Shown here one piece after another: positions 1 through 14,198 of a stretch of 64,000 nt of DNA. The notes beneath the pieces were generated by a model. The model was not told the origin of the DNA, did not search any database, and was given only the letters and a program-made list of their open reading frames with translations. Numbering within the stretch: the first letter of the stretch is position 1; each line of letters opens with the position of its first letter. The stretch spans positions 5,724,501 through 5,788,500 of the forward strand of contig NZ_JAPJZK010000001.1 in NCBI RefSeq assembly GCF_026309355.1, read 5' to 3'. The translations under genes were made by a program, and so were the position numbers. Source of the DNA: Spartinivicinus marinus (GTDB taxonomy: Bacteria; Pseudomonadota; Gammaproteobacteria; Pseudomonadales; Zooshikellaceae).

Positions 1-174
1 AACTTGTTGCTATATCGCCCAATTTAGCAATATTTTTTTATTGCGAATTTTGGCCAGCATCCAACCAATAGGGATACCAAGAGTAATCGCAGCAATTGCA
101 ATAACCAAATTAAGTATATAACCACTGGCCAGCAGTGGTGTCCATTGCAATAGTTGGCCTATAATTGAAAACAT
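1..174 (-). pseudogene. Amino-acid ABC transporter permease, N-terminal part, frame broken
   Basis: Reading from the ATG at 174, a hydrophobic N-terminus typical of a HisM/HisQ-type permease runs 54 codons and hits TAG at 12-10. Just before this is an A7 run (minus strand; positions 32-38). Shifting to the -1 frame after the run removes the stop and gives KLGDIATS up to the window edge, which fits the continuation of such a permease. The gene is either truly frameshifted or has a one-base homopolymer error. It would be the second permease of the unit formed with the binding protein at 888-1754 and the permease at 219-887; its remainder lies outside the window. Confidence 0.55.
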
Positions 175-218
175 AGTGAGCTTTATTATGTGAGTTTATA
201 GAAACTATGAAACTTATA

Positions 219-887
219 TTATTTAAGTAATTTATAACTCAGATAATGAGTAATAAAATCACATAACTTAATACATAATAGTACGGTTAAATAATAAAAA
301 ATCATCAAAAAATTCATTAGCATTAATACATTTCCTTGTGATGAGGCAATACTGGTCACAATTAGGATGGCATTCGGTACAGCTAAAACACTTGCCATCC
401 CTGCTGCTTTAACAAGGTTTACCAAATTAGCTTTAATACTCTGCTGGCAAAGTAGTAGAGCACTAACCCAATGCTCAAATGACGTGTTGGACTTATCTAG
501 CGTTTTTATGAGGGCATCAGAGAGAACTGTGCTTGCGCCTGCACCGGTATAAAGCGAAAGCACCATGACAGAAATGAGTGCAGCCCCAGGTTTTAAGGTG
601 ATGTGTGATGATAACGCATGAAATACGCCAAAATAAATTAAATAGAGTAAAACGATAGGCGGTGTCATACGTTGTAAATTGATAACAAAGCGAATGAATA
701 GACTGCACCGAGGGGGTAAATTTTGCACGAGAAAGGCAAATAGCAACATGGCAATGACTGCACTAACTAAGGCCAAACCAGTAAGCCATAGGGTGTAGAC
801 AAAAGACTCAATTAGCCTGTTGGTATCAAACGAGTCGAGTGGCCACCCCTGTTTTTTAATAAATGATTGATTTTTAGGTAGAGTCAC
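219..887 (-). CDS. Amino-acid ABC transporter permease
   Basis: A 222-residue inner-membrane protein with about five hydrophobic segments. It has the features of polar amino-acid permeases: the RMTPPIVLLYLIYFG stretch matches the usual R-G-T-P-L-L-V-Q segment, and the cytoplasmic EAA-like loop is present as NLVKAAGMASVLAVPNAI, though its Glu-Ala-Ala core is degenerate. It starts with GTG at 887, directly abutting the TGA stop (890-888) of the binding-protein gene, so the two are translationally coupled. No ATPase gene is visible here; it would have to lie to the left or elsewhere. The substrate is unknown. Confidence 0.8.
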   Translation of the reverse strand: MTLPKNQSFIKKQGWPLDSFDTNRLIESFVYTLWLTGLALVSAVIAMLLFAFLVQNLPPRCSLFIRFVINLQRMTPPIVLLYLIYFGVFHALSSHITLKPGAALISVMVLSLYTGAGASTVLSDALIKTLDKSNTSFEHWVSALLLCQQSIKANLVNLVKAAGMASVLAVPNAILIVTSIASSQGNVLMLMNFLMIFYYLTVLLCIKLCDFITHYLSYKLLK

Positions 888-1754
888 TCAAGGGACAGGC
901 CAGTTCCCATTAGGTAGGCGGCTGCACAATGGTTTTCCATCAATATTTTTATAAGACCATAGTTTTTTTCGTGTGACTAAATATTGATAATCAGGTAATT
1001 TCCAATAAACAGCTTTTTCTAGTAGGAAACCATTGGCAAGCCACTCCACAATAAGTTGACTAAGTACGGTTTCCAATGAAGCCGTGTCTTGATTTTTACT
1101 CACAGCCATCCCCCAATTCACAGGTAAGATAACCGGTAATTCAGTTTCATAGGCTTGCCATGTTGACTGTGTAAGCAAGTGAGCTAAGATTCCATTATCA
1201 TAAGCCCAGCCTATACACTTTTTAGTAATCAATGCTAACTGAGCATCTCGGGTGTTGTGCATTATCACCGGCTTAATCAGATACTGTTGAATCAGTGGCT
1301 TATTAAAGTAAGCCCCATTGGTAAGACAAACAGGTTTATCCTTAAGTGACTCCCAATTTCTTAACTGATATGATTTATGTGATACAAGAGAAACACCGCT
1401 ATTAAAATAATGTGGCTCAATCATAGTCACCAAAGCACGGCGAGATACTGTATCCCCTAACGTGGCAATCAATAAGTCCACATCACCTTCATTTAATTTA
1501 TGTAAACGATTACTACTATTAACGACCAGTAATTCTAAATCTACCCCTACTTTTTCTGCTACGGCTTTAGCAAGATCAGGCTCAAAACCAACAATTTGCC
1601 CATTAGCATTAAGCATTCCCCAGGGAGGATAGTCCGTTTTTACTCCAACGGTTAGCTTTCCCCGGTTTTGGATAGTGCTTAGCGCATCACTTGCCATTAC
1701 TGGTAATGAGCTGAATATGAAAAATGCGTTCCAAGCAATCAACCTACACCACAT
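888..1754 (-). CDS. Periplasmic amino-acid binding protein (SBP family 3)
   Basis: The frame is open from TTG at 1796, but I prefer ATG at 1754, which gives a clean signal peptide (MWCRLIAWNAFFIFSSLPVMA, cleaved before SDAL) and a purine-rich AAAAGAG upstream. The mature part begins IQNRGKLTVGVKTDYPPWG and continues IVGFEPDLAKAVAEKVG, the lobe-1 signature of family-3 solute-binding proteins. About 265 residues follow the signal, a normal length. It overlaps the end of the methyltransferase gene by 11 bp and abuts the permease at 887, so it is the receptor of this uptake system. The ligand cannot be read from the sequence. Confidence 0.85.
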   Translation of the reverse strand: MWCRLIAWNAFFIFSSLPVMASDALSTIQNRGKLTVGVKTDYPPWGMLNANGQIVGFEPDLAKAVAEKVGVDLELLVVNSSNRLHKLNEGDVDLLIATLGDTVSRRALVTMIEPHYFNSGVSLVSHKSYQLRNWESLKDKPVCLTNGAYFNKPLIQQYLIKPVIMHNTRDAQLALITKKCIGWAYDNGILAHLLTQSTWQAYETELPVILPVNWGMAVSKNQDTASLETVLSQLIVEWLANGFLLEKAVYWKLPDYQYLVTRKKLWSYKNIDGKPLCSRLPNGNWPVP

Positions 1755-2565
1755 GTGACGTTGCTCTTTTAGCCGTAACGAGTAATCCATAGCCAACCGT
1801 TGGAGGAAGTTTTGTTAATAACCAATGATTGAGTTGGTAAACTAGCTGACAAGATGTAATCCATTTTTCAGGGAATATACTTTCAGGCGCTACTGACTCA
1901 ATTATTAAGCCTGCACAACGCAGTTCATTTTCAAGATCTTTTAATGTATATAAGTGATAAAAGAACGTCATTTTGTGTGATTTATAGTGCCTTTGATAGA
2001 AAATATCACTGTGTCGAAAAGAATCTAGATAACTACCAAAATACTGCTTTAACTGGCGTACAGGAAATCGCCGCCAGCGATTGGGTACAGAAATAACAAT
2101 ACAACCATTATTGTCTGTTAGAAGTTTAGCTAATTTTTCTAATAATTGAATACGGTTATTTTTACCTTCAATATGTGATAGAACCCCAAACAATAACATG
2201 ACCAATATAATAGGCTTTTGGTGAATAACTGTCTTATAAAATGTGGCTTCATTATCAAATAACTGGGTTCTCACTCGGTATTGTACAATTGGCTCTATAT
2301 TTTTTTTCAATTGAGCAATTGCTGCTTTACTGGTGTCAAAGCCAATAAACCTAGCAATAGAACTATCGAGTAAAGGGAATAAATAACGCCCGTTACCACA
2401 ACCATAGTCAATAATGGTTGCCTCTTTACTTTTGGGATATTTTTTCAGCTCGGATCTTATCCATTGTAAAACCCATGGATTAGCTTTTGGGTAACGTTTT
2501 TTATAAAGCCCACTACTAAAGTAACAGTCATAATAACTGGTTGAATTTGGGTTTTTCATTACCAT
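1744..2565 (-). CDS. Class I SAM-dependent methyltransferase
   Basis: A 273-residue Rossmann-fold methyltransferase. Motif I is IIDYGCGNGRYLFPLL at about residues 52-67, followed by the acidic ribose-binding position in FIGFDTSKAAIAQLKK. The GCGNGRYL form resembles Trm9-type enzymes, but the rest does not let me assign a substrate. ATG at 2565. It leads the amino-acid transporter unit (11-bp overlap with the binding protein). It lies 345 bp downstream of the terminator of the RiPP-like operon, so a role in peptide modification is possible but not supported by cotranscription. Confidence 0.75.
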   Translation of the reverse strand: MVMKNPNSTSYYDCYFSSGLYKKRYPKANPWVLQWIRSELKKYPKSKEATIIDYGCGNGRYLFPLLDSSIARFIGFDTSKAAIAQLKKNIEPIVQYRVRTQLFDNEATFYKTVIHQKPIILVMLLFGVLSHIEGKNNRIQLLEKLAKLLTDNNGCIVISVPNRWRRFPVRQLKQYFGSYLDSFRHSDIFYQRHYKSHKMTFFYHLYTLKDLENELRCAGLIIESVAPESIFPEKWITSCQLVYQLNHWLLTKLPPTVGYGLLVTAKRATSHVV

Positions 2566-2911
2566 TTATTTTTCTCAAAAAGGAAGTCGCAGAATTAGAG
2601 GTCAGAGGCTTTAAAAAAATATTTTGGTGAAACTTTAGTAGTTTAATACTTAATAGTTTTTTAATGGATAGCATCATAATAATAAACTTTATTCCCTTAA
2701 TTTAGTAGACTTCGGTAAGGATATACTTTAATATTTCCTACTGATTTACCCGCCGTCCCCCAACCGCTCCAGTAAATCTTGAGAAGGTTGAATAAATCAA
2801 CAAACTTCTATTTGATAACAGTGAATACCTTGAGCCAAAACTTAAAGGTTTGAGAACCAGAGCTTTTATGTTAAAATTATTATAGTATATTTATTACAGC
2901 CAGCTTCTATT
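2566..2911. other. Intergenic region without a gene
   Basis: An AT-rich spacer between the RiPP operon terminator and the methyltransferase start. I see no convincing reading frame; it should hold the promoter of the methyltransferase/transporter unit, but no strong -35/-10 pair stands out. Confidence 0.4.
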
Positions 2912-2943
2912 TAAAATGGTGGAGAGCAAAAGCTCACCACCAT
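2912..2943 (-). terminator. Terminator of the precursor-peptide operon
   Basis: On the minus strand, ATGGTGGTGAGC, loop TTTT, GCTCTCCACCAT forms a 12-bp stem with one mismatch, followed by TTTTAAATAG. It begins 11 bp after the stop codon of the second precursor peptide, as expected for a Rho-independent terminator. Confidence 0.75.
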
Positions 2944-2953
2944 CGATTAAGTA

Positions 2954-3103
2954 TTAACTCAATACACCTTGTAATGCTCCTGTTCCAGCTTTTTTTAGAA
3001 CATTTAATACGCTGCCCCAAAAAGCTGGATTAACGCCAGCTGCTTTAGCTTCTGCAGCCCGGTTTGAACGGTCAATACTTTTAGCTTGTGTAGGTAGTTT
3101 CAT
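2954..3103 (-). CDS. Putative RiPP precursor peptide, copy 2 (49 aa)
   Basis: A 49-residue peptide starting at ATG 3103 behind GGAGAAAAATC and ending at TAA 2956-2954. The leader-like part begins MKLPTQAKSIDRSNR, continues through an Ala-rich AAEAKAAGVNP and ends in AFWGS. The rest (SVLNVLKKAGTGALQGVLS) is hydrophobic with two lysines and could form an amphipathic helix. It has no Cys. It is a near-duplicate of the peptide at 3146-3298, and both sit behind a subtilisin-like protease gene. I infer that it is the substrate of that protease. No known product family was recognised. Confidence 0.75.
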   Translation of the reverse strand: MKLPTQAKSIDRSNRAAEAKAAGVNPAFWGSVLNVLKKAGTGALQGVLS

Positions 3104-3145
3104 GATTTTTCTCCATTTGTTTAGTTTGTTTTCTAAGTTATTTAA

Positions 3146-3298
3146 TTAGCTCATAATCCCTTGCAGTGCTCCTTGACCAGCTTTTTTGAGAATATTTTTA
3201 AATGCACTTCCCCAAAAAGCTGGATTAACGCCAGCTGCTTTAGCTTCTGCAACACGATTTGAACGGTCAATGTTTTTAGCTTGTGTAGGTAGTTTCAT
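3146..3298 (-). CDS. Putative RiPP precursor peptide, copy 1 (50 aa)
   Basis: A 50-residue peptide, ATG at 3298 with a strong CAGGAGAAAAATC ribosome-binding site, TAA at 3148-3146. In the first 31 residues it differs from its neighbour at only two positions (Asn9 for Ser, Val16 for Ala). After AFWGS the C-terminal part varies more (AFKNILKKAGQGALQGIMS). A constant leader followed by a variable tail is typical of precursor peptides cleaved by a dedicated protease. It lies about 100 bp downstream of the protease gene on the same strand. Confidence 0.75.
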   Translation of the reverse strand: MKLPTQAKNIDRSNRVAEAKAAGVNPAFWGSAFKNILKKAGQGALQGIMS

Positions 3299-3401
3299 GA
3301 TTTTTCTCCTGAGGTTTTGTGTTTTAAAGGCAATATTGCCTTAGCATGAATAACTTGCTTTTTAGCAAAGTTACTCAATTCTTTTTTACTAAACTAGTTT
3401 T

Positions 3402-5300
3402 TTAATAAGCATGCCAGCTACGCAGATGGCCAATGGTAACTGGAATAATGTCACTGACATCGACAGTGTATCTAAAGAGTTTACGTGCTGCTGTCAAACG
3501 TTCTTTAGGGTTGAAGAATTCAAGAATAACATCCCAACAGTCAGAGTCAGGACGACTGACGGGACTCTCTTCTGCAGAAATCTTGTTTAGGAACAAATTT
3601 TCACTAAATGCATCATCAAATATTTCTTTCATTTGATAGGCATTTGTAGCTGCATAATTAATGGCACGTTCATTAGGCTCTGAGCCACGATTTCTTAACT
3701 CATAATAAATCCTATGGAGAAAGTTTGTTAGAGCTTTTCGTTGTGGCTCATCTTTTGATTCATTCCCAATGACAAGATGAGATAAGTCTTTTGATTTCCA
3801 ATTGAACATACCTCTTAATACTGGTGAAATGGTAGGAACAACATGGCCATTAAATAGCCTCACTTCTCCTGTAATTGTTCCAGCAATGGAAACACGTTCA
3901 ACTCCTTCAGTCTCTTGATCATGTATAAACTCAACAAGTCTAGCATATTGTAAAACAGCAAACTGATTGTCGGGTTCAATAGCATATACAGGTATGCCAT
4001 CAATTTTTAACGTCCAAATTAAAGCATTGGATTGTTCTGTATTGCCTTCTTTATTTAGGTGTGTTGCCATTTCAACAGGATCAAAAGGCATCCCTTGGTT
4101 TCCCATCACTTGTGAGAAATAATCTAATCGAGCTTCGGTACCAAAATCATAGCCAATAGTACCGATTAAAAACACCTTTTCTTTGTGTTTTGCTGTACGT
4201 GGATCAGAATTGGATTGACTAACAATAGTCGCTGGATTATGGACATGATTATTAGAAGCAGAATCTTCTATTTTAGGTAAAGCTAGTACTGATTTTGATG
4301 AAGCATCTATATCATCACTGCTTAATACTTCTTGTCCAGTATCTATTGTGTCCGAAATGACTTCATTTTCATCATTATGATGAATATCTATTTTTTCATC
4401 CATTGATGGTTTTCCTCTTTTGGGTTGGTGGTTAGTGAATTGCTCAACATATGCAGCTAATGCTGCTAGATTGAGTCGGTGTATAGGAGAAATAGTTTTT
4501 TGAGGTTGTACAAGTAAACTTGCTGATTCAAACAAAGCCTTCTTTACAGCATAACCTCTTTGAGGCTTGGGAATTTGATGAAAGGAGTTTAAAATAAGTG
4601 CACTCACTGCTGATACAACGGGTGCCGAAAAGCTGCTACCAGATGCAAGATTATATTGATTTAAATTTGCTGCTACTGGAAGTCCTACTCCAGATGCAAG
4701 TAACATTTTTTTTCTTAATTTAATTCCATAATTATTAAAAGCTGCTGGAATTCCATTACGATCACAAGCACCTACAGCAATAACATATGGCAAAGATCCA
4801 GGTAATGATTCACTGTTTACACCTTCATTACCAACTGCTGCGATAATTATTATTCCTGCTTTTTCACATAAACTCACAGCCTTTCGTAGTTCATCCGTAC
4901 CTCTGCCATTTACTGAAAGCCCTGCACCACTTATATTTATAACATCACTACCAAACTTAACTGCTTGTCTAATTGCATTAGCAATTTTCCTTTCAGAGCA
5001 CCCGTGAATTTGACCTTCAGTATCTTCGTAAAAAACTGGTAAACTTAAAATATTGACAGACTTTGCAATACCTATATTATGCCCACATATCAAACTACAG
5101 ACAGCAGTTCCATGGGTTGTACATTGACTTTTTTTGTTTAGTTCGCTGGTTATCTGGACATTATGCAGTTCTGGATGAAGTGGATCTATTCCTCCATCGA
5201 TAATAGCTATTTTAATACCATCTCCATGCTTACCAAAGGTTTGTAGTTTATGAATTGGCGAAGCTAAACACTCATTCTTTTCTTTATTTTGCACATCCAT
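3402..5300 (-). CDS. Subtilisin-like protease with PatA/PatG-type C-terminal region
   Basis: A 632-residue protein without a signal peptide. Residues ~25-290 are a peptidase S8 domain with an intact triad: Asp in IAIIDGGIDPLHPEL, His in THGTAVCSL, Ser in ASGSSFSAPVVSA. A polar linker (~295-375) follows. The C-terminal ~255 residues begin KVFLIGTIGYDFGTEARLDYF and end RKLFRYTVDVSDIIPVTIGH, which I recognise as resembling the C-terminal domain of cyanobactin maturation proteases PatA/PatG. In cyanobactin pathways those proteases cut leader and follower and, for PatG, cyclise the core. Here the gene precedes two tandem small peptides, so it is probably their maturation protease. No heterocyclase (YcaO) is visible nearby. 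Confidence 0.8.
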   Translation of the reverse strand: MDVQNKEKNECLASPIHKLQTFGKHGDGIKIAIIDGGIDPLHPELHNVQITSELNKKSQCTTHGTAVCSLICGHNIGIAKSVNILSLPVFYEDTEGQIHGCSERKIANAIRQAVKFGSDVINISGAGLSVNGRGTDELRKAVSLCEKAGIIIIAAVGNEGVNSESLPGSLPYVIAVGACDRNGIPAAFNNYGIKLRKKMLLASGVGLPVAANLNQYNLASGSSFSAPVVSAVSALILNSFHQIPKPQRGYAVKKALFESASLLVQPQKTISPIHRLNLAALAAYVEQFTNHQPKRGKPSMDEKIDIHHNDENEVISDTIDTGQEVLSSDDIDASSKSVLALPKIEDSASNNHVHNPATIVSQSNSDPRTAKHKEKVFLIGTIGYDFGTEARLDYFSQVMGNQGMPFDPVEMATHLNKEGNTEQSNALIWTLKIDGIPVYAIEPDNQFAVLQYARLVEFIHDQETEGVERVSIAGTITGEVRLFNGHVVPTISPVLRGMFNWKSKDLSHLVIGNESKDEPQRKALTNFLHRIYYELRNRGSEPNERAINYAATNAYQMKEIFDDAFSENLFLNKISAEESPVSRPDSDCWDVILEFFNPKERLTAARKLFRYTVDVSDIIPVTIGHLRSWHAY

Positions 5301-5345
5301 TACTTATTTCCTTTGTTTGATAATAAGTTGCTAACTTGTGGTTGA

Positions 5346-5585
5346 TTAATTATTTCTGTATTTATAAATATGAAAAGAAAGCAGTATGTGTTTGAATGTT
5401 TTTTCTGGAGATACTTTAATATGCGATGTATCATAAAAAATAATCGAAATTTTTTTGGGTGGTTGTTTTTTGTTGGTAATTAGTAAAACATAAGAATGCT
5501 TGATATTATTTTTATGACCAGAAATAGTATCATCATTTTCTATAGATATAGAATGCTTTGTTTTATAAACTAAAATAATTTGCAA
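5346..5585 (-). CDS. Hypothetical small protein upstream of the protease
   Basis: A 79-codon frame from TTG at 5585, ending 45 bp before the protease start on the same strand. It is Lys/Ile/Asn-rich with no recognised domain and lacks a good ATG start. The open frame extends upstream to ~5625 without an ATG. It could be a small gene of the RiPP operon, the tail of a decayed gene, or chance in AT-rich DNA. Confidence 0.25.
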   Translation of the reverse strand: MQIILVYKTKHSISIENDDTISGHKNNIKHSYVLLITNKKQPPKKISIIFYDTSHIKVSPEKTFKHILLSFHIYKYRNN

Positions 5586-5614
5586 TAGTTGTTGCCTATC
5601 ATTTTCTATTGAAA

Positions 5615-5718
5615 AACAGCCGCTGCCCTACTTTGGTTAATAATTTCAAACTAATCATACTCATATAGAACTATGTTTAATCTAAGTAATCACCAAGAAC
5701 AGCAAAACAGCGGCTGTT
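5615..5718. repeat. Inverted repeat arms at the edge of the 411-bp repeat
   Basis: AACAGCCGCTG at 5615-5625 is the exact reverse complement of CAGCGGCTGTT at 5708-5718. Shorter arms occur in the equivalent place of the second copy (AACAGCC at 7315-7321, GGCTGTT at 7417-7423). The arms enclose about 85-95 bp and could form a hairpin or mark the end of the repeated unit. Confidence 0.5.
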
Positions 5719-6122
5719 GCAGGGGCAATACAACACTACCCAAGAAAGTCTATGTAATTGCATTGAGTACTAAACTAATGCTGTCTACCAGTTTGGTATT
5801 CAATATCGCGGGAAGGAATCAAGGAGTGCTTACATATATTCCAAGGAAGGGAGAGTAGCCGCTTTTCTCCTAAAAGAGATCACTTGTCAGTAATTACAAA
5901 AACTACAGTTTAAACATGCCATTTATTGACTACTACATTTTGGCCAGTGTGCATCTTAACCTTTAAATACGTTTATAACGTAGTTAATTAACTAACTTGT
6001 TTTTCCTCTTCATTATCAAATAATTGATGAGACAAGTGCCGTATTAATCGGTGCTCGGTATCACATAAATCAGTATATAATTGTTCATAGCGGTCTTTCC
6101 AGCGTCGTGCCCAACTGCGTTT
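5712..6122. repeat. Direct repeat, copy A (411 bp)
   Basis: Starts at GGCTGTTGCAGGGGCA and ends at GCGTTT. It matches 7417-7826 almost base for base, with scattered substitutions and a few small indels. It contains about 275 bp of non-coding DNA and the last ~45 codons of the antitermination Q-like gene. The ExoY-like cyclase gene lies between the two copies. Confidence 0.9.
5988..6122 (-). pseudogene. 3' fragment of the antitermination Q-like gene
   Basis: Encodes the last ~44 residues of the Q-like protein at 7692-8249 (RRWKDRYEQLYTDLCD and HQLFDNEEEKQ are recognisable), with a few substitutions. It has no start or 5' part and is joined exactly to the stop codon of the cyclase gene (TGA 6124-6122). 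It is a by-product of the direct duplication and not a functional gene. Confidence 0.85.
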
Positions 6123-6328
6123 CATGAATAAACACTAGTTAGTAATCGGTTTATTTCTTTAGCGTAATCCTGGACTTGTATTTTTTTTTTGTTTACGATG
6201 TCGTTTTTGGTTAAATCATCAAAGAAAAAGTAAAATGGTATTTGTTCGAGTAACTCATGCTCTTCGTAGTATTTATAAACTTTTGCAGCACTGTCTAATA
6301 AATATACCTCTTTTTCTTTGTTAAACAT
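6122..6328 (-). pseudogene. C-terminal part of the ExoY-like cyclase in a shifted frame
   Basis: A frame of 68 codons from ATG 6328 (KEKEVYLLDSAAKVYKYYEE...). In the same frame it is open upstream to the A8 tract near 6393-6400, reading NYAVPQLPLQGVVTTIDNN before the ATG. This suits the segment after the catalytic His in edema factor/ExoY, where an I-F-I-I-N-P-E-G-like strand follows. I therefore read it as the displaced 3' end of the gene at 6355-7104 and not as an independent protein. It ends exactly at the boundary of the direct repeat. Confidence 0.65.
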
Positions 6329-6354
6329 TATGATATTGTTATCGATTGTGGTGA

Positions 6355-7104
6355 CTACACCTTGCAGAGGTAATTGCGGAACAGCATAGTTTTTTTTAAT
6401 ATTTCCTTCATTTCTTCAATACTATTTTGATCTAGCAAATAACTGATAAATGATGTTTGGGCACCATGCCTGATCCATGCATATTGGGAATTAAACCAGC
6501 GTCCGCGCACTGCTTCAGTATCCTTAATTTTAGTTTTGCTACCCTCATTCATCTTAACAAGGAGGCTATTGATCGTCGATGATTCATCTGGTGTACCTGC
6601 AAGGATCCTTTTATTCTCTTTAAGAAGGTCATGCATATCGTAATCACCAGTGAAAAACTGGGTCTCTTCATATTTGTTTAGATCACCTACTGGAATCTGT
6701 TCTTGCCCCTTGCTATTCAACTTCCATATACCGCCAAGTTTTGGGCCATTCACTGCTGTGTTCTTTTCTGGATAGCCCACCAGTCCTTTGTATCTGTTAA
6801 GCAGTTTTTCATCTGCGCTATATGTCCATAAACCATTCTTCTTTTTGATAGACTTATCCATTATAGTGTGACCTTTACATGGATTGCCTTTTGAAATACG
6901 TTCCAATGTGTCCATTCCTGCAGCTCTAAACGAAACCTGAAGGTTGTATTTTTCACATGCCTCTCTAACAGATGTTGCATGGTTTTCCAACAAAAAACCT
7001 TTTTCATATATTTCTTTATCTTCTATCTTATTATAAGAAGCTTTCTCATAAGCAGCTTTCATAATTTTCAATACATCTTTTTTCATATCAGCAACTTTGG
7101 TCAT
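6355..7104 (-). CDS. ExoY/edema-factor-like nucleotidyl cyclase toxin, frameshifted at 3' end
   Basis: A 249-residue product with AAGGAAAA before ATG 7104. It carries the residue pattern of the anthrax edema factor/CyaA/ExoY cyclase family: Arg60 (SFRAAG), Lys77 (CKGHT) and Lys84 (DKSIK), spaced 17 and 7 as for R329, K346 and K353 of edema factor; Asp154-x-Asp156 in TGDYDMH for the two metals; and His213 in IRHGAQTSF. Such enzymes make cAMP or cGMP inside host cells when activated by calmodulin or actin. After residue ~237 an A8 tract shifts the frame; the rest is encoded at 6122-6328, and the repaired protein would be about 335 residues, near ExoY length (378). No signal peptide or delivery system is visible. 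It is located just downstream of a phage Q-like gene, the usual position of phage-borne toxins. Confidence 0.75.
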   Translation of the reverse strand: MTKVADMKKDVLKIMKAAYEKASYNKIEDKEIYEKGFLLENHATSVREACEKYNLQVSFRAAGMDTLERISKGNPCKGHTIMDKSIKKKNGLWTYSADEKLLNRYKGLVGYPEKNTAVNGPKLGGIWKLNSKGQEQIPVGDLNKYEETQFFTGDYDMHDLLKENKRILAGTPDESSTINSLLVKMNEGSKTKIKDTEAVRGRWFNSQYAWIRHGAQTSFISYLLDQNSIEEMKEILKKTMLFRNYLCKV

Positions 7105-7416
7105 CTTTAATTTTCCTTTAATTTTAACTAATGTTATAGGATTTCTTAATTTCCTATAACATAGTGCTAAAAGACAATGGGTTTATTTCCTTGACATTTT
7201 TATCGTTTATGGTCTTTTAACAGCCAGTTCAGATATTAAAAGACTCTCATTAGCCAACTAAATTTTAGCCGTAACTTTCATATCCTATTAATAGATTTGG
7301 AAATGTTAATAAAAAACAGCCTACTGCCCTATTTCACTGACTGATAACAAGTCAAAACATTAATTAAGATACACTTTTAATGTAGGTTGCATAAACAATC
7401 AGTACATAAGAACAAA
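7105..7416. promoter_or_regulatory. Upstream region of the cyclase gene with TAAAAGAC motifs
   Basis: Contains three copies of TAAAAGAC: 7168-7175 and 7237-7244 on the plus strand, and the inverted GTCTTTTA at 7212-7219. The last two form a 9-bp inverted repeat (GTCTTTTAA / TTAAAAGAC). They could be operator sites for the cyclase promoter. No clear sigma-70 promoter was found. Otherwise AT-rich and without genes. Confidence 0.3.
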
Positions 7417-7826
7417 GGCTGTTGCAGGGGCAGTACAACGCTACCCAAGGAAGTCTATGTAATTGCATTGAGTACTAAACCAATGGAGTCTACCAGTTTA
7501 GTATTCATATCATGGGAGGGAATCAAGGAGTGCTTACATATATTCCAAGGAAGGGAGAGTAGCCGCTTTTCCCCTAAAAGAGCACACTTGTCAGTAATTA
7601 CAAAAACTACAGTTTAAACATGCCATTTATTGACTACTACATTTTGACCCGTGTGCATCTTAACTTTTAAATATGTTTATAACGTAGTTAATTAACTAGC
7701 TTGTTTTTCCTCTTCACTATCAAATAATTGATGATACAAGTGCCGTATTAATCGGTGCTCGGCATCACATAAATCAGTATATAGTTGTTCATAGCGGTCT
7801 TTCCATCGTCGTGCCCAACAGCGTTT
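7417..7826. repeat. Direct repeat, copy B (410 bp)
   Basis: The partner of 5712-6122. This copy is continuous with the intact Q-like gene at its right end (the last ~45 codons of 7692-8249 lie inside it), so it is likely the original copy and the left one the duplicate. Confidence 0.9.
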
Positions 7827-8249
7827 ATCAATACCCGCGTAAAGGTATTTACTGCGTTCACTTTGTCTTAAATAGCCAATGCCACTACACTGTTGGCAGG
7901 ATATAGTCAATATTTTTCCAATTCCTTTACATTTTCTACAAATGGGGCTTTCGACTAATTCCAGACAAGCTAGTTGGGATAATCGTTCTAATCGCTCATT
8001 AGTTGCACGCCATTGGCTTTTGCTAGCAAGTCGCTGAGCTTGCTCTTTAATTAACGCTATTAAAGCTGCTTTTGCTTGTTCATCATGACAATATTTAGTA
8101 CGACCAAGGTAGTAAGCGATTGAGTCTAAATTGCCCATGGCTAATGCTGCAGCAACATCTTCCCAACTTATTCGATTGAAACCTCCTGGAATATGGTCAA
8201 GAGAACATTGCTTTGGATTTAGCAATAAAATCATACGAGCTGCACTCAT
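7692..8249 (-). CDS. Phage antitermination protein Q-like
   Basis: A 185-residue protein. A central zinc-finger-like motif, CRKCKGIGKILTISCQQCSGIGY (four cysteines as CxxC...CxxC at about residues 103-122), and a basic C-terminus (RRWKDRYEQLY) match the DnaJ-like zinc-binding antitermination proteins of lambdoid phages, which load on RNA polymerase at the late promoter. ATG at 8249 with AGGA upstream. The HTH gene ends 29 bp upstream in the same direction, and a toxin gene lies downstream. No structural phage genes are present, so this is a remnant or a co-opted regulator. Confidence 0.7.
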   Translation of the reverse strand: MSAARMILLLNPKQCSLDHIPGGFNRISWEDVAAALAMGNLDSIAYYLGRTKYCHDEQAKAALIALIKEQAQRLASKSQWRATNERLERLSQLACLELVESPICRKCKGIGKILTISCQQCSGIGYLRQSERSKYLYAGIDKRCWARRWKDRYEQLYTDLCDAEHRLIRHLYHQLFDSEEEKQAS

Positions 8250-8278
8250 AAATTTATTCGTCCTAAGTGAATTGAAAG

Positions 8279-8545
8279 CTAGTGCTTATTAGTTGTTTGT
8301 TGTGTATTGTGTTGGGTCAACATGCTTTGTTTTTTTGATTTTTGACGTTTTCGATAGGTTACATAGGGCTGGTAAATCCCCTGCCAATCAACAACTTGCT
8401 GAGTTTTTTCGATAATATTATATGCTTGTTCAGGTGTGGGTGCTCGCTCCATTCGTCGCCATGAACTCACAGTGCGTTTTTTTACCCCTAACATAGCGGC
8501 AACTTCATCATCCCCATGTTTTTGTATAAAAACAGAAAATTGCAT
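8279..8545 (-). CDS. Small HTH DNA-binding protein (Cro/YdaS-like)
   Basis: An 88-residue protein. The N-terminal ~45 residues form a helix-turn-helix (DDEVAAMLGVKKRTVSSWRRMERAP), as in Cro- or YdaS-type phage repressors; the C-terminus is polar and basic (RKRQKSKKQ). ATG at 8545 with AAGGAAGAAAA directly upstream. It precedes the Q-like gene in a two-gene unit and probably binds DNA near this locus; its targets are unknown. Confidence 0.65.
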   Translation of the reverse strand: MQFSVFIQKHGDDEVAAMLGVKKRTVSSWRRMERAPTPEQAYNIIEKTQQVVDWQGIYQPYVTYRKRQKSKKQSMLTQHNTQQTTNKH

Positions 8546-9052
8546 TTTTCTTCCTTAAAAAATCGCTATTAAATGAAGTGTCTGTGAGTAAGACCAAGAA
8601 AGTATTGGTAATTAGTTGGTGTTTAGATCAAGATAATAGTTTATATACCAATCTCTCTAACCATTAAAAAACTCACTGATTACCCTTCATTTGGGCGTAC
8701 CCACGATGAGGTAGATTACTGTTGCACTGTGTTTAGCTGAAATATGGAGAGTATTTCGATTATTATTTAGTCAGAATTTATATACGACTATTAGCTAATC
8801 TTTAATAAAATCTAAAGCTTGCCAGCTTACTAAATAGTTAACTACTGATTGGGGGTTTTAGCAAACTATGAAGCGCCGTTATTACACGCGCTGTGTAGCT
8901 GAAAACTGCAACCGTTATTATTAAAAATTCACTGGGATTTTTGCAGCTTACTAAATAGTAAACGTGAGATTGGGGGCATTTGCAATAGTGGCAATAACTT
9001 AGCTTACACTATTTGTGTAAAGATGAATTAAGCGAAGTGAAGAGTAAATAAT
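8546..9052. other. Intergenic region with a short direct repeat
   Basis: No gene seen. CAGCTTACTAAATAGT occurs at 8823-8838 and 8944-8959, each followed after 8 bp by GATTGGGGG (8847-8855 and 8968-8976). The 121-bp periodicity and the upstream position relative to the HTH gene suggest operator-like sites or remnants of a small repeat. Confidence 0.4.
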
Positions 9053-9093
9053 AAAAAAGCCCGCTAGCGTTTAAGAAACTAGCGGGCTTTTTT
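9053..9093. terminator. Strong bidirectional terminator
   Basis: AAAAAAGCCCGCTAG, an 11-base loop, then CTAGCGGGCTTTTTT: a perfect stem with an A-run on one side and a T-run on the other. It lies 23 bp after the stop of the metalloprotease gene (minus strand). Confidence 0.9.
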
Positions 9094-9115
9094 GAGTGGT
9101 CTGGATTTTAACAGT

Positions 9116-11167
9116 CTATTTCTTTTTATCTAGCTTGATATTATCCAGATAAAAATCATTGCCAGGTTCTGGGCCGAAGATGTAAAGTTGTGCAAACTTT
9201 ACGTTGCCTTTGGCTTGGTAGTTAAACTCACCGCTAATTGACATCCATTGTTTATTGGCTGGCACTGTTTCTGTTTTTATTCGCTTCCAGTGATAACCCT
9301 CGTCATCCACATAAAACAGTTGCATGTCAATATATTGTGGTTTGCTGACTTTATCGGCTAAGCGAGCGTCAAAACTAAACTGGTAATTTTTACCGCTTTC
9401 TACCAGCCCTTTTACATCTAGTGCTGGGCCAGAGTACCAGTGATCACGCCCCATGGCCATTAGACTATATTTGCCGTCTTTTGCCATTTTATTGGTGCGT
9501 TCGACTTTATCAATACCAAAGAATGGTATCCAGCCGTGGTTGTCTCCCTCAAAACCGTGATCAATTAATGGGCCAAGGTCAGGTTTTTCGCCAGCTTTTC
9601 TTAAGGTCACTTCATCCGCATAGAAAGCAGCATTCTTTTCAGGACCAAAGATTAATAATTGCACTTTGCGAATTTTACCAAAATGGTCAATTTTAAACTG
9701 GCCTGTTACCGTTGACATTTCATTATTAGTAATCGAGCTATGCGCGACATACTGATAATGTACGCCTAAATCATCGGTAATTTGTAGGGCAATTCGCGCG
9801 TTATCCCGCTTTTGCTCTTTAGTCGCCAGCTGCATTTTAGCACTGACTTCAAGCTCAGTATTTTTGAGGTCAGCGATATTAATCACTTTATTAGTGATAT
9901 CTTGCGCTACCCCATCATAATAGGCCATTCGATTAGTGACTTTTAAAATATTATCTCGACCACACTTGGTTGTTTTTGATTCTGTATTGATAGTCACCAC
10001 GTTATTATAAAAACTATTCCAACCACTTAAGCTGTTAAAATCGCCAGACTCAACCATATTCTTCGACATGTGTGGTTTTTTACAGACATCATCCGGATCT
10101 GGGTTTGGATTCGGATTCGGATTTGGCTTATCTGGCCAGTCTGGACCATCGTCATCACCTGGGTCTGGATTCGGGTTCGGATTTGGACCTGGCTTATCAT
10201 CGTCATCATCTGGCCAACCGGGACCATCATTATCCCCATCATCTGGTGGTTTTGGACCGCCATCATCAGGGTCATCCGGGTTTGGATTGGGTTTATCTGG
10301 CCAGTCTGGGCCATCATCACCAGGATCGGGATTTGGATTCGGGTTGGGATTTGGCTTATCGGGCCAGTCAGGACCATCATCACCTGGGTCAGGATTCGGA
10401 TTCGGATTCGGATTTGGGTTCGGATTCGGTTTTGGATTATCTGGCTGTTTTGAAGGCATAAATGCTTCTAACTGGGATGCCACCGCATTGATATTTTTAA
10501 CACTATCGGTGTAATTAGCTTTACCACAAGGACGGTTTTTACACTGGTTTACATTCGGGTTTGAAAAATACTGTACATTGCGTGCATTATAAGCAGATCC
10601 ATAAGCCATTACCGTTGCAAACATTCCTCGTTCACCATGACCTCGTGCCCAAGACCAGATACCCCCTTTGCTATTTTGGGCAGCCGAGTGTCCCAGGGCC
10701 ATGTTATGGCCTAACTCGTGAGCAAATGCCACATTGCCACAATTGGTTGCAACCACGCTGTATGCTTGACTGCTTTGGACGCGGCCTTGAGGGACCCAAG
10801 CCACACCACAGGTGCCGCCAGAGCGAGGCGCAAAGTAGCTGACGAAATCTGCTCCATATTGTTGTCTAAGTCTGGCTATCGCCCTATCGTTGGTCACTCG
10901 GTCTAATGCGTTACCATTGGTATTGCCATGAAAAGTATTGAGTGGCACAACCCCTACCAATCTTAACTGCACATTGGCCCGGCTATTTTTATAAGCCTGG
11001 TTAGCCCAGTTAACGTAAGAGGCGGCTAACGCTTTAACATCTTGAGCACCACTCTTACCTTGGGGGTAAACCACCAATACATCCAACATCGTATTGGCAA
11101 GTGCTGAGGTGCTGTAAGCGGCAATTGCCAAGCTTAAGCTAGAAATCTTTAAAAAATGACTGCGCAT
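9116..11167 (-). CDS. Secreted zinc metalloprotease with Pro/Asp linker and two CBM-like domains
   Basis: A 683-residue protein. Signal peptide: residues 1-24 (ends STSALA). The catalytic domain (~25-235) is metzincin-type: HELGHNMALGH at 150-160 binds zinc, and the Met-turn is VMAYGS at 186-191, fitting reprolysin-like bacterial peptidases. Residues ~241-362 are a low-complexity linker of repeated PNPNPNP, DPGDDGPDWPDKP and similar units, very acidic. Two related ~155-residue modules follow (starting MVESGDFNSLSGWNSF and LIDHGFEGDNHGWIPF, each ending in a F-Y-x-D-x-x-x-L strand), like family 4/9-type carbohydrate-binding jelly rolls. The likely role is extracellular degradation with substrate or surface tethering. 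It stands alone, with a terminator just downstream. Confidence 0.85.
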   Translation of the reverse strand: MRSHFLKISSLSLAIAAYSTSALANTMLDVLVVYPQGKSGAQDVKALAASYVNWANQAYKNSRANVQLRLVGVVPLNTFHGNTNGNALDRVTNDRAIARLRQQYGADFVSYFAPRSGGTCGVAWVPQGRVQSSQAYSVVATNCGNVAFAHELGHNMALGHSAAQNSKGGIWSWARGHGERGMFATVMAYGSAYNARNVQYFSNPNVNQCKNRPCGKANYTDSVKNINAVASQLEAFMPSKQPDNPKPNPNPNPNPNPNPDPGDDGPDWPDKPNPNPNPNPDPGDDGPDWPDKPNPNPDDPDDGGPKPPDDGDNDGPGWPDDDDDKPGPNPNPNPDPGDDDGPDWPDKPNPNPNPNPDPDDVCKKPHMSKNMVESGDFNSLSGWNSFYNNVVTINTESKTTKCGRDNILKVTNRMAYYDGVAQDITNKVINIADLKNTELEVSAKMQLATKEQKRDNARIALQITDDLGVHYQYVAHSSITNNEMSTVTGQFKIDHFGKIRKVQLLIFGPEKNAAFYADEVTLRKAGEKPDLGPLIDHGFEGDNHGWIPFFGIDKVERTNKMAKDGKYSLMAMGRDHWYSGPALDVKGLVESGKNYQFSFDARLADKVSKPQYIDMQLFYVDDEGYHWKRIKTETVPANKQWMSISGEFNYQAKGNVKFAQLYIFGPEPGNDFYLDNIKLDKKK

Positions 11168-11784
11168 AAATTCAGCTCTTGATTGCTTTAATAATGGTTA
11201 TTTGTTAAATAAAGGGTTTTGTGAAAAATATTATTAGGTAAACCTTCCACTAAATATTGAAAGTGTTTCACCTAAGAAATAATTTTAAATAACGTTTAAT
11301 GCTGACTAATCGATTGCTCGCCAGCTCAAATAAAAATCCAGTAAAAACAAGTGCTGCGATTAAGTTAATGTCTTTGATAATAAAATAAAGCGATATATTG
11401 CACATTCAATCGTTCAAATATTACTTTTTCTTATAGATGAAATTTTTTTCACGACTTATGAGTTAAGTGAGTTCAGGAGTGACGTGATTACTTATAATTA
11501 ATTATTGATCGCAGTTAAATTAATATTTATTGAGGAGTTATACTAGTTGAGGGCTAAGATGCAATTTTATTGAGGGGTAATATTAAAAACCATCAGCCAT
11601 TTAGAAAGATTGATAAAAAGCAGTTTGGTTGGTAAAGCTGCTAATCCTGCTAGCAGCTTTTATATTCTGGCGCTAATATAAGCTGTCCAGTGACGGCGGG
11701 GAAAATAAATTATTGAGGACCTGTAAATAAATAATACGCATTCATATTTATAATTATTTAATCCTAGCTATTTTATTTTGTTAA
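11168..11784. other. Intergenic region, no gene seen
   Basis: An AT-rich 617-bp spacer. It contains one clear hairpin: AAAGCTGCTA / TAGCAGCTTT (10-bp perfect stem, 11634-11660), which could terminate the leftward DUF2589 transcript about 125 bp after its stop. The promoter of the metalloprotease should lie at the left end; I could not define it. Confidence 0.4.
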
Positions 11785-12360
11785 TTAATCATCGATAGAG
11801 GTTTCCGCTTTTTTCTCATCCTGTTTGGGTGGTTCGGGGGTAGCGGCTGATACAGGACCAATTAGATTGGTATACTCTTCAATCACCCGCATAATGCCTT
11901 CAGGTGGTTCGATGGCCTGAAACTCCATATCAATTGCAATTTCATCAGCATAACGCCCATCGCCTCCTTTGCTCCGCTTATTGGATTGAAAAGAGACTGT
12001 GAACCCACCTCGTCGCATTTGTTCTGCATTGTCGGCAGTCGTGGCCTTTTTCAGCTCAATTTCTTCCATTTTGACTGACATTGAGACTTTCATTCGATCC
12101 ATCACAATGCCTTTAGGGGCTACCATTGAAATTAATGGCACATACATCGAGTGGTTATCCCCTAGCTTTATTTCAACCATTTTCGCTTTCAGGGGAGAGT
12201 CAGGATCTTTAGGGTCTTCCCGATCAAAAAACTGTTCAAATAATCTGACATACTGCTGTGCCACCATGCTGGTTGTGGTCATGGCCGCATGGTGCATACC
12301 GCGAGTTATATTAGTTAATGAAACACTATTAATGGGTTCTTTATTTTTTTTGAATACCAT
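11785..12360 (-). CDS. DUF2589 family protein (first paralog)
   Basis: A 191-residue protein whose layout matches DUF2589: an N-terminal helix region (NITRGMHHAAMTTTSMVAQQYVRLFEQFF), a central beta part with VPLISMVAP and MKVSMSVKMEE, and the C-terminal signature EPPEGIMRVIEEYTNLI. The function of this family is unknown. A hydrophilic tail rich in Pro/Lys/Glu ends the protein. It lies downstream of a second DUF2589 gene on the same strand, separated by a hairpin terminator, so it may have its own promoter. Confidence 0.7.
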   Translation of the reverse strand: MVFKKNKEPINSVSLTNITRGMHHAAMTTTSMVAQQYVRLFEQFFDREDPKDPDSPLKAKMVEIKLGDNHSMYVPLISMVAPKGIVMDRMKVSMSVKMEEIELKKATTADNAEQMRRGGFTVSFQSNKRSKGGDGRYADEIAIDMEFQAIEPPEGIMRVIEEYTNLIGPVSAATPEPPKQDEKKAETSIDD

Positions 12361-12429
12361 TATTATTCCCCCTCAATGACAGTCACGAACAAGTAAGACA
12401 TAAGACGCTTTTGTGACTGTTATCACCCA

Positions 12430-12470
12430 TAAAGAAACACCCCTACCCGCTTTATTCAGGGGATAGGGGC
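12430..12470 (-). terminator. Terminator between the two DUF2589 genes
   Basis: On the minus strand GCCCCTATCCCC...GGGTAGGGGTG forms a GC-rich stem with a one-base bulge, followed by GTTTCTTT. It is 20 bp after the stop of the gene at 12491-13138. Confidence 0.7.
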
Positions 12471-12490
12471 AAGTCGTCACTGCTTAAGCA

Positions 12491-13138
12491 TTAAGAGCCA
12501 GTTTTCTTGTCATCAGCCTTAGGCGCAGGCAATACATTATTTTTAGGTAATGCGTCAGTGTTTTCTGGCTTAGCATTTGGTAATACAACCGGTTTGGTGG
12601 CTGCATCAGTAAGATAGTCAATCACCCGCATTAATGCTTCTGGAGGGTTTTGACGTTTAACGGTGGTAGAAATACTGTACTTAGCCCGAGTGTCTGTTTT
12701 GCGGGTTTGTTCTGACTTATGAGAAACACGACCATTGATAGTGACACTGAAGGGACCCCAGCCTACTTTCGCTTCCAAAGAAGCTTCCGCTTCAGTTGAA
12801 GACTGGCTTTCTTCAGACTGACTCACTTCTAGTTCAAAATCAATTTTACCTTCATCAACGGTAATATTAGGGTGACTAATCGCCGCTAATAAAGGAATTC
12901 GCATGGTTTTGGATAAAGTACCTTGATATCTACCTTCAGAGTTTACCAAGGTTTCATCGTATTCAAACTCAACCGCAATGGCTTTACCATCTTTAATACA
13001 GACGGTTAACAAGAAGTCTGCATAAGCTTTACTTGCTTGTACTTGGGCTTTGATCATTGCATTTAAAGGTGCAGAGATCATCCGATCCAAGGGTAAGGCA
13101 TTAATGACTGAGCCTATCAGTCCAGTGTCGATTGCCAT
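12491..13138 (-). CDS. DUF2589 family protein (second paralog)
   Basis: A 215-residue protein with the classic DUF2589 pattern: N-terminal NALPLDRMISAPLNAMIKAQ, central IPLLAAISHPNITVDEGKIDFELEV, a Ser/Glu-rich segment, then KVGWGPFSVTINGRVS and the C-terminal NPPEALMRVIDYLTDA. It has no signal peptide and no membrane segment. The family function is unknown. It sits between a membrane-anchored TPR gene (13310-13753) and the other DUF2589 gene, all leftward, suggesting a small system. Confidence 0.8.
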   Translation of the reverse strand: MAIDTGLIGSVINALPLDRMISAPLNAMIKAQVQASKAYADFLLTVCIKDGKAIAVEFEYDETLVNSEGRYQGTLSKTMRIPLLAAISHPNITVDEGKIDFELEVSQSEESQSSTEAEASLEAKVGWGPFSVTINGRVSHKSEQTRKTDTRAKYSISTTVKRQNPPEALMRVIDYLTDAATKPVVLPNAKPENTDALPKNNVLPAPKADDKKTGS

Positions 13139-13236
13139 AGTTTTTCTTCCTTGAGTGTTTTCTTATAGAGTAGGGTCTGGTACAGGGTAAGATAGCTGCA
13201 CCATCATAAATACAGTCAGTTTTTAGGATAATTATA

Positions 13237-13258
13237 TTAGCCTGTCCAGGCAGGCTAA
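13237..13258. terminator. Hairpin after the TPR gene
   Basis: TTAGCCTG / CAGGCTAA is a perfect 8-bp stem with loop TCCAGG, about 50 bp after the stop of the TPR gene. The T-run is weak (AATATAATT), so it may be a terminator or a regulatory hairpin. Confidence 0.4.
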
Positions 13259-13309
13259 TAACGGACTGTGCCAAAAAACATAGTTAAAGAGTAGCCAATC
13301 AGCAAGTAT

Positions 13310-13753
13310 TCATTTCACCAAGCCAGGCCGACTATTGGATATCTTGTTCATTAAATCTTCAACATAAGGATTAACGGTTTCACGCCAGCTGGGATTTAAC
13401 TGCAGAATGGTTTGGAAGGTACGTTTAGCATCATGCCAGCGCCCTTTGTGATAAAACGCTAAGGCTAAATACCAATGGCACCACGTGTCGTTAGGGTAAC
13501 TTTCTACGCGCTGCTCACTGATTTTTTGTAGTTGATCCAGCTTATTTTGTTCTAGAAACTCATCAGCTTGCTCTCTAAACAACTTGCGCTTTTGGACAGC
13601 ATCAATATGGATTAGCCAGCGTTTAGCTTTGATGACCAACATTACTAGCACAGTTGCACTAGCGAGCCATAAGAAAATGAGAGTCACTAATAGCCATTTG
13701 ATTGTCCCCCACTCACCAGTGAGCTGACTCATCAATAAAGTGCTAGATTCCAT
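13310..13753 (-). CDS. Membrane-anchored TPR protein
   Basis: A 147-residue protein with one hydrophobic segment (WLLVTLIFLWLASATVLVMLVI, ~residues 20-41), followed by a basic stretch and two TPR-like helical pairs (NDTWCHWYLALAFYHKGRWHDAKRTFQTILQLNPSW, ~residues 90-125). It probably serves as a scaffold at the inner membrane. It lies upstream of the DUF2589 pair with the same orientation; a functional link is inferred from position only. Confidence 0.65.
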   Translation of the reverse strand: MESSTLLMSQLTGEWGTIKWLLVTLIFLWLASATVLVMLVIKAKRWLIHIDAVQKRKLFREQADEFLEQNKLDQLQKISEQRVESYPNDTWCHWYLALAFYHKGRWHDAKRTFQTILQLNPSWRETVNPYVEDLMNKISNSRPGLVK

Positions 13754-14198
13754 TAGATTCTCCTTTATATTATTCCTGCCGTTTTATAGGTGGAGTTGTG
13801 ATAGGTGAAGTGTGGTTAAGAGCTATCAAAGCAATTAGTAAGCCACTACCCTACAAGTGATGTTTATTATGAGAAGTAATAATTGCGTGAGAACATCTAT
13901 AAAGAAGGGCGATAAAAAGCGTATATGCGCAGGCTGTTGTAACTGCAAGCGCTAAACAACAGTAGACTTATTGCCATGCTGGGTTATATTTCAAACACTG
14001 CAACAATGCTGTAAAAGAGCAACTGTTGTGCTTTTTTACAGCGAACTTAGGTACCTGTAACAGCGATAAAAGCTTGATGGTGCCTGATTTCGCTAGACCT
14101 CATGGAAATTTCATGTGGTTTGATGAAATATTTGGGCTAGCCCGTTACAATGCCGCGGCCTTATTGGAAACGTTGATAGCCCCATAGTATTAGATGTT
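13754..14198. other. Divergent intergenic region
   Basis: It should hold the promoters of the leftward TPR gene and of rightward pabB. An imperfect hairpin (GCTGTAAAAGAGCAAC / GTTGTGCTTTTTTACAGC) lies at 14008-14042. No gene recognised. Confidence 0.35.

Follow-up and report, generated by a model that had tools for sequence, protein, structure and literature searches.

We analysed a stretch of 64,000 nucleotides from the genome of Spartinivicinus marinus (contig NZ_JAPJZK010000001.1, positions 5,724,501 to 5,788,500; termed the window), whose segment 2912-5300 encodes an S8 protease followed by two small peptides. In our judgement the locus is probably a minimal, cyanobactin-related module for a ribosomally synthesised and post-translationally modified peptide (RiPP), which has a PatA-type protease only and would free linear cationic amphipathic helices. 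An earlier examination of the letters alone (the sequence-only reading) had proposed a RiPP-like operon with a PatG-type protease at the same coordinates, which are correct.

The protease gene (3402-5300, minus strand) encodes 632 residues without an internal stop. Its S8 subtilase domain (PF00082, residues 26-260, nucleotides 4521-5225) contains the triad D35, H63 and S223, whose columns are invariant in all eight aligned proteins, the window protease and its relatives. The C-terminal part holds the cyanobactin domain of unknown function (DUF), composed of PatG_D (PF18047, residues 375-474, nucleotides 3879-4178, 64 bits) and PatG_C (PF18065, residues 515-629, nucleotides 3414-3758, 125 bits), both of which exceed the Pfam cut-offs of 27 and 25.9, respectively. 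Moreover, the protein reaches 457 bits with TIGR03895 of NCBIfam (curated cut-off 421). The intact S8 protease with a PatA/PatG-like C-terminal region that had been noticed in the letters is thus borne out, and a comparison of this region with PatA/PatG returned the DUF of PatG as the closest match in the PDB (4uvq, E = 1e-49, residues 374-630). The PatG-type label, however, did not hold. The S8 part matches the PatA-type protease domain 4h6w (E = 2e-32), PatA structures score higher than PatG macrocyclase structures (116 bits versus 63 bits; 4h6x and 4aks), and the match to PatG begins only at residue 63. The macrocyclase domain of PatG has a longer insertion between Asp and His; here, that insertion is lacking, with 28 residues between D35 and H63. 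Because no oxidase domain is matched by Pfam and the Asp-His spacing is short, the protein is, by its sequence, a true member of the PatA/PatG family that is PatA-like rather than PatG-like. It is the sole PatG_C match in its genome, and no signal peptide is evident when judged by eye.

Precursor 1 (3146-3298, 50 residues) and its paralogue precursor 2 (2954-3103, 49 residues) follow on the same minus strand, separated from the protease gene and from each other by 103 and 42 nucleotides, respectively. Each is preceded by a ribosome-binding site, as noticed at the first inspection, AGGAGA (3305-3310) for precursor 1 and GGAGA (3110-3114) for precursor 2, both 6 nucleotides ahead of the ATG. The claimed terminator directly after the peptides stands only in part: there is a strong hairpin 3' of precursor 2 (2915-2944, minus strand, -20 kcal/mol, z -6.3, none of 200 shuffles as good), but its run of U is short and it is absent from the list of a strict terminator scan. 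It is probably the end of the operon. Neither precursor matches any family in Pfam or NCBIfam, and a profile search of the genome found no copies beyond the two in the window. The precursors are real genes under purifying selection, because the proportion of nonsynonymous differences (pN) is well below that of synonymous differences (pS): among the between-lineage pairs listed, pN is 0.11-0.16 and pS 0.55-0.92 (uncorrected Nei-Gojobori values that omit one codon of precursor 1). The core is constrained as well, with a pN of up to 0.23 and a pS of at least 0.58 between lineages. Within the window, the two precursors differ by a pN of 0.03 in the leader and 0.14 in the core.

Both precursors start with MKLPTQAKxIDR and thereby contain the leader motif PxQxxx(V/I)xR (residues 4-12 of precursor 1, nucleotides 3263-3289), with the same spacing of PxQxxxVxR as in NILPQQGQPVIR, a published cyanobactin leader peptide (PMC5108345). 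Farther along lies GVNPA, the predicted PatA-type cleavage signal (residues 23-27, nucleotides 3218-3232 in precursor 1; 3023-3037 in precursor 2), which is invariant in the precursor alignment. It agrees with G(L/V)E(A/P)S, the PatA cleavage consensus given in PMC10885120, at three of five positions (G, V and P), and has N instead of E and A instead of S. The LAELSEE heterocyclase element is absent from both precursors, and no AYDG-type macrocyclase signal stands after the core, with which the peptides end. Thus, the claimed lack of resemblance to PatE is true of these two elements but wrong for the leader motif, which is shared, and GVNPA resembles the PatA signal to the extent stated. In agreement with the previously noted lack of a YcaO enzyme, Pfam recognised no YcaO, PatG macrocyclase or prenyltransferase in the protease and 13 window neighbours, the rest of the genome not having been searched for YcaO; the same holds for 11 proteins scanned from the Enterobacterales genome G558, its protease included.

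For the combination of leader motif and cleavage-like motif, 2574 open reading frames (ORFs) of 30-140 residues from 18 PatA-family loci were scanned, four g70/G082 loci with another leader type being kept outside this count. The scan gave 17 matches in 14 loci, each located 91-739 nucleotides behind the protease on the same strand, and none elsewhere. One further ORF, likewise behind a PatG_C gene, has the leader motif alone. Since eight of the 14 loci with both motifs are from Dickeya, the matches represent about seven independent lineages, and since the pattern itself was drawn from these sequences, the scan shows specificity rather than discovery. As a separate observation, a cyanobactin cluster of Gloeothece encodes a PatB-family protein (L017, 9338-9553) that starts with MRLPKLAPPVKR, which resembles the precursor leader motif.

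The RiPP-like pairing of precursor and protease is upheld by its linkage in other genomes, a comparison that the sequence-only reading had recommended. A scan of species genomes yielded one relative, a Dickeya oryzae protease that is 59% identical and has a single precursor, 76% identical, directly behind it. Within Dickeya, eight of nine species genomes encode the protease, in all eight cases with the precursor directly behind. G558 has the same protease-then-precursor pair and is the only non-Dickeya match among 295 Enterobacterales genomes, as well as the only match among 12 genomes of its family. Finally, a genome of another class, G1317, encodes a diverged protease (TIGR03895, 511 bits) followed by two tandem peptides, which carry (G/S)V(N/G)PAFLG and GA(L/V)xG. 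A profile of nine window-type precursors ranks these two peptides first and second (E = 2e-9 and 5e-4) among 1159 small ORFs of nine distant loci; the third is a Cys-rich peptide of L022 (E = 0.003). Among the relatives of the window genome, in contrast, the protease was found in none of the 55 searched (one of 56 if the genome itself is counted). This patchy distribution suggests that the pair may have spread by horizontal transfer.

PatG_C is rare altogether: it was detected in 6 of 369 genomes of the window's class, 2 of 398 of the phylum and 2 of 337 of the G1022/G1317 class, where each count includes the query genome or a known match, as well as in 1 of 17 genomes of the order of G1317 and 3 of 42 of that of G086, one of them over the cut-off. 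The phage collection gave 12 records for the protease, in which only part of the S8 domain matched, and the plasmid collection five, all cyanobacterial, which served as distant relatives. No match to the protease was found in viral contigs, and none to the Dickeya locus in E. coli genomes. The precursor had no match in the plasmid and phage collections; 39 stretches of viral contigs fit its pattern, with no relative among them, and the nine PDB matches of the precursor family (best E 0.09) are unrelated by eye. An Rfam scan of 2400-9000 gave no match.

The predicted cores of the two window precursors are amphipathic and comprise 23 residues with a charge of +3 (3149-3217, precursor 1) and 22 residues with a charge of +2 and a C-terminal GALxG (2957-3022, precursor 2). 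Across the window, Dickeya and G558, the predicted cores have 22-23 residues and a side-chain charge of +1 to +3, and in each of the 11 copies (nine distinct) at most 2.9% of 5000 residue shuffles reach as high a hydrophobic moment. GA(L/V)xG is present in all 11 distinct cores, those of G1317 included. For the two window precursors, the calculated masses are 2451.31 and 2244.26 Da (monoisotopic) for the unmodified cores and 2849.53 and 2794.49 Da for the predicted leader fragments. A low-confidence model of precursor 2, with a predicted local distance difference test (pLDDT) score of 67, shows helices at residues 5-21 and 26-48 and a break just ahead of the predicted cut.

Conservation is higher in the DUF than in the S8 domain in all seven comparisons, with identities of 78% versus 57% for Dickeya, 74% versus 52% for G558 and 41-47% versus 33-36% for five distant proteins. 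In all three g70 genomes the DUF forms an independent ORF (about 299 residues; PF18065, 118-121 bits), which stands beside a separate S8 ORF and directly ahead of two peptide genes; with TIGR03895, this split DUF protein reaches only 16 bits (family scan in one of the three genomes). Thus, in loci with protease and DUF split, the precursors remain next to the DUF. The g70 peptides have a PxFTAxxSL leader, and in G082 the same type lies behind a DUF fragment that is ended by the contig end. We also observed that precursors of this type with Cys-bearing tails come directly after a PatG_C protein that stands alone (L006-L008) or a contig-end DUF fragment (L009), and that the S8 protease is a separate gene in L024, which is the same place as L006.

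In a tree of the DUF, the window, Dickeya, G558 and, on a long branch, G1317 are set apart from the other rows by a branch supported at 100/99, and they also group in the S8 tree (100/98). The DUF tree has 11 rows, with L018 left outside, and the S8 tree ten, including the very long branch of PatG. In this small sample, the peptides with Cys-free tails follow one protease lineage; the first peptide of G1317 does have a Cys, located in the leader. Separate histories of S8 domain and DUF, with only the DUF tracking the peptide type, were looked for but find no support in the trees, as G1317 joins the window group in both. Since the two trees agree, they do not single out the DUF.

We infer the following course of events for the locus. 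A cytosolic PatA-type protease would recognise the precursor leader and cut after GVNPA, freeing a linear cationic amphipathic helix of 22 or 23 residues that starts with Phe-Trp-Gly and ends with GALQG(V/I)(L/M)S. Heterocyclisation, C-terminal trimming or macrocyclisation would not be expected, because the peptides lack the recognition elements and no such enzymes were recognised in the neighbourhood. The DUF would most likely bind the leader, probably at its N-terminal PxQxxx(V/I)xR motif, and the freed helix would most likely act on membranes. The DUF of PatA/PatG is conserved in the characterised patellamide-like pathways, and that of PatG has a novel fold (PMC4259220). Residues 1-15 of PatE are described as untouched by TruD (PMC3995012). 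We regard as doubtful a more far-reaching version, in which the DUF is a docking module for PxQxxx(V/I)xR leaders and this branch of PatA proteases, known from at least two proteobacterial classes, has a new product type: linear helices that the protease frees, that carry no other modification and that act on membranes. Its likelihood is lowered because the G1317 cores are not clearly amphipathic.

This leads to the points that weigh against the proposed module. The two G1317 cores are more hydrophobic, have charges of 0 and +1, and 6% and 12% of shuffles reach as high a moment; by this measure they are not clearly amphipathic, and the cationic helix does not hold across the branch. The motif pair is not universal either: among the 18 loci, L016 and L017 have neither motif, L018 has the first only and L014 only a variant, and the g70 peptides have the different leader PxFTAxxSL. 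For the DUF of PatG, PMC4259220 reports no binding of PatE' by nuclear magnetic resonance and ascribes an isothermal titration calorimetry curve to aggregation. This weighs against docking as a general role of the DUF, but PatG acts once the leader is gone and the DUF of PatA was outside that study. A rival role for the leader motif may be binding to the oxidase, as the authors of the ThcOx work mention evidence that NILPQQGQPVIR may bind that enzyme, with no density visible (PMC5108345). The structural model of the precursor is weak (pLDDT 67), and the AlphaFold model of the protease, made from two sequences, failed (pLDDT 31). Finally, no exporter or immunity gene was seen that the window has in common with G558 and Dickeya; for an antimicrobial this would be unusual.

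This last point would fit a helix that acts inside the producer, with the protease as a trigger that releases a membrane-disrupting peptide, for example during phage attack, so that export would be unneeded; that no signal peptide is evident by eye is in line with it. PADLOC, moreover, matches the protease to a subtilase (E 4e-12) and to IetS (E 6e-8). Both matches, however, are confined to the common S8 domain, and only three of ten window neighbours have PADLOC matches, all of them partial: the methyltransferase (mad2, E 9e-9, and others), a helix-turn-helix (HTH) protein (E 0.005) and a TPR-like protein (E 0.0015). The presence of the locus in eight of nine Dickeya species, with syntenic neighbours in the eight loci compared, is also unlike a typical mobile defence gene, and we consider action inside the producer improbable. 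The Dickeya loci invite another explanation, in which the product, instead of being an antimicrobial, serves as a signal or is surface-active and is controlled by a linked regulator. In all eight, the precursor is followed by a short ORF for an XRE-like regulator, of which G558 has a homologue (44% over 61 residues) ahead of its protease; a core that is conserved, not hypervariable, would suit such a role. A search for homologues of this regulator (E <= 0.1) in L044, L021, L022, L024, five cyanobacterial loci and the 64-kb window was negative, however. A signal or surface-active product seems to us an unlikely alternative.

The core might also be modified further, by enzymes encoded elsewhere or by the product of a methyltransferase-fold gene (2565-1744), the first gene of some size to follow on that strand; the search for modifying enzymes covered the window neighbours, not the genome beyond them. 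The strong hairpin lies in between, though, and the G558 and Dickeya stretches compared have no homologue of the methyltransferase, which leaves further modification a rather slim prospect. That the protease itself macrocyclises the core, giving a circular peptide as PatG does, is very unlikely: it resembles the PatG structures 4h6x and 4aks, but the higher score of the PatA structures, the short Asp-His spacing and the lack of anything AYDG-like after the core led us to reject a PatG-type macrocyclase. Chance ORFs unrelated to the protease, finally, are practically ruled out by conservation, as pN is well below pS, Dickeya and G558 have the same peptide after the protease, and G1317 has diverged relatives of it.

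The PatA-only module that we favour shares with the patellamide-type cyanobactin pathways (PatA, PatD, PatE and PatG) a PatA-family protease with the DUF, the leader PxQxxxVxR and a PatA-like signal ahead of the core. It differs from them in that the scan of neighbouring proteins recognised neither a YcaO nor a PatG macrocyclase nor a prenyltransferase, that LAELSEE and AYDG are absent, and that each precursor has one conserved Cys-free core instead of short variable cassettes. The suggestion of a distinct class was too strong; the locus is better described as a divergent branch of cyanobactin-related systems. Such a stripped-down system, which keeps the DUF and the leader motif and loses the heterocyclase and macrocyclase elements, points to DUF and motif working together, and its main value would be a test of the role of the conserved DUF that is feasible with two purified parts. 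If the proposed cleavage is true, it would also provide a compact leader-removal protease for peptide work.

Other cyanobacterial and proteobacterial PatA-family loci (L014, L015, L018, L021 and L022) likewise have a protease with the DUF, behind which lie small peptides that carry the same leader motif or a variant of it and, in L014, L015, L021 and L022, a (V/I/M/T)xPS site ahead of the tail. They differ by their Cys-rich tails, and the DUFs of L014, L015, L021 and L022 lie outside the 100/99 branch of the window, Dickeya, G558 and G1317. Such Cys-rich small peptides behind PatA-family genes of proteobacteria and cyanobacterial plasmids were seen at 6813 and 6500 (L021), 4885 and 5341 (L022), 7522 (L015), 7435 (L014) and 1008 (L018), those of L014, L015 and L018 being outside the plasmids' listed genes, a gene table that is incomplete. 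Class IIb two-peptide bacteriocins are pairs of short helices with GxxxG-like motifs, whose precursors have double-glycine leaders and are processed by a C39-peptidase exporter. The paired short helices and GxxxG-like motifs are reminiscent of the window peptides, whereas neither the double-glycine leader nor the C39-peptidase exporter is seen at the window locus.

Papers on Dickeya list an antiSMASH 'cyanobactin' cluster (PMC6329079, PMC8386352, PMC10319131, PMC11231085, PMC8864124, PMC7356628). As far as their available passages go, one of them could not connect the cluster to any known molecule and others mention cytotoxicity; in some D. zeae strains, an island with a RelE/ParE toxin is described inside the cluster (PMC8864124). 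This cluster is probably the present locus, because in the Dickeya genome G421 no gene other than that of the protease matches PatG_C. The Dickeya-type locus in G1089 has RelE-like and Gp49-like genes with HTH partners nearby, which is reminiscent of the D. zeae island. In the open-access literature searched, the available passages contain no description of these precursors, and those on Dickeya name no precursor or product. Some of the published accounts assume cytotoxic cyanobactins, whereas the anatomy described here predicts linear unmodified helices; if true, this would cast doubt on such compounds as the products of the 'cyanobactin' clusters in Dickeya.

Among ORFs of at least 60 residues, none besides protease and precursor is common to window positions 1-14000 and the G558 and Dickeya stretches (E <= 1e-5). 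Past the hairpin, the methyltransferase-fold gene (2565-1744) is followed on the same strand by a gene for a solute-binding protein. The methyltransferase was rejected as an operon member on the grounds given above, and so was, as a partner, the GH19 chitinase-family gene that lies ahead of the protease in all eight Dickeya loci, of which no homologue was found in window positions 1-14000 or in L020. Upstream of the protease lies a patch of phage-like regulators with a duplicated segment. The region 8545-7692 (minus strand) encodes a Cro-like HTH protein and an antitermination-Q-like protein (PHROG 127, E = 4e-8), and a direct repeat of about 415 nucleotides (5687-6102 and 7392-7806, 85-95% identical) contains the end of the Q-like gene a second time, in truncated form. 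The repeat flanks ORFs of 249 and 68 residues without a Pfam match. The sole hint of a phage structural gene is a weak baseplate-hub match of the ORF 7104-6355 (E = 0.005). Farther upstream, tandem DUF2589 proteins (12360-11785 and 13138-12491) are encoded beside a protein with a TPR-like match (13753-13310).

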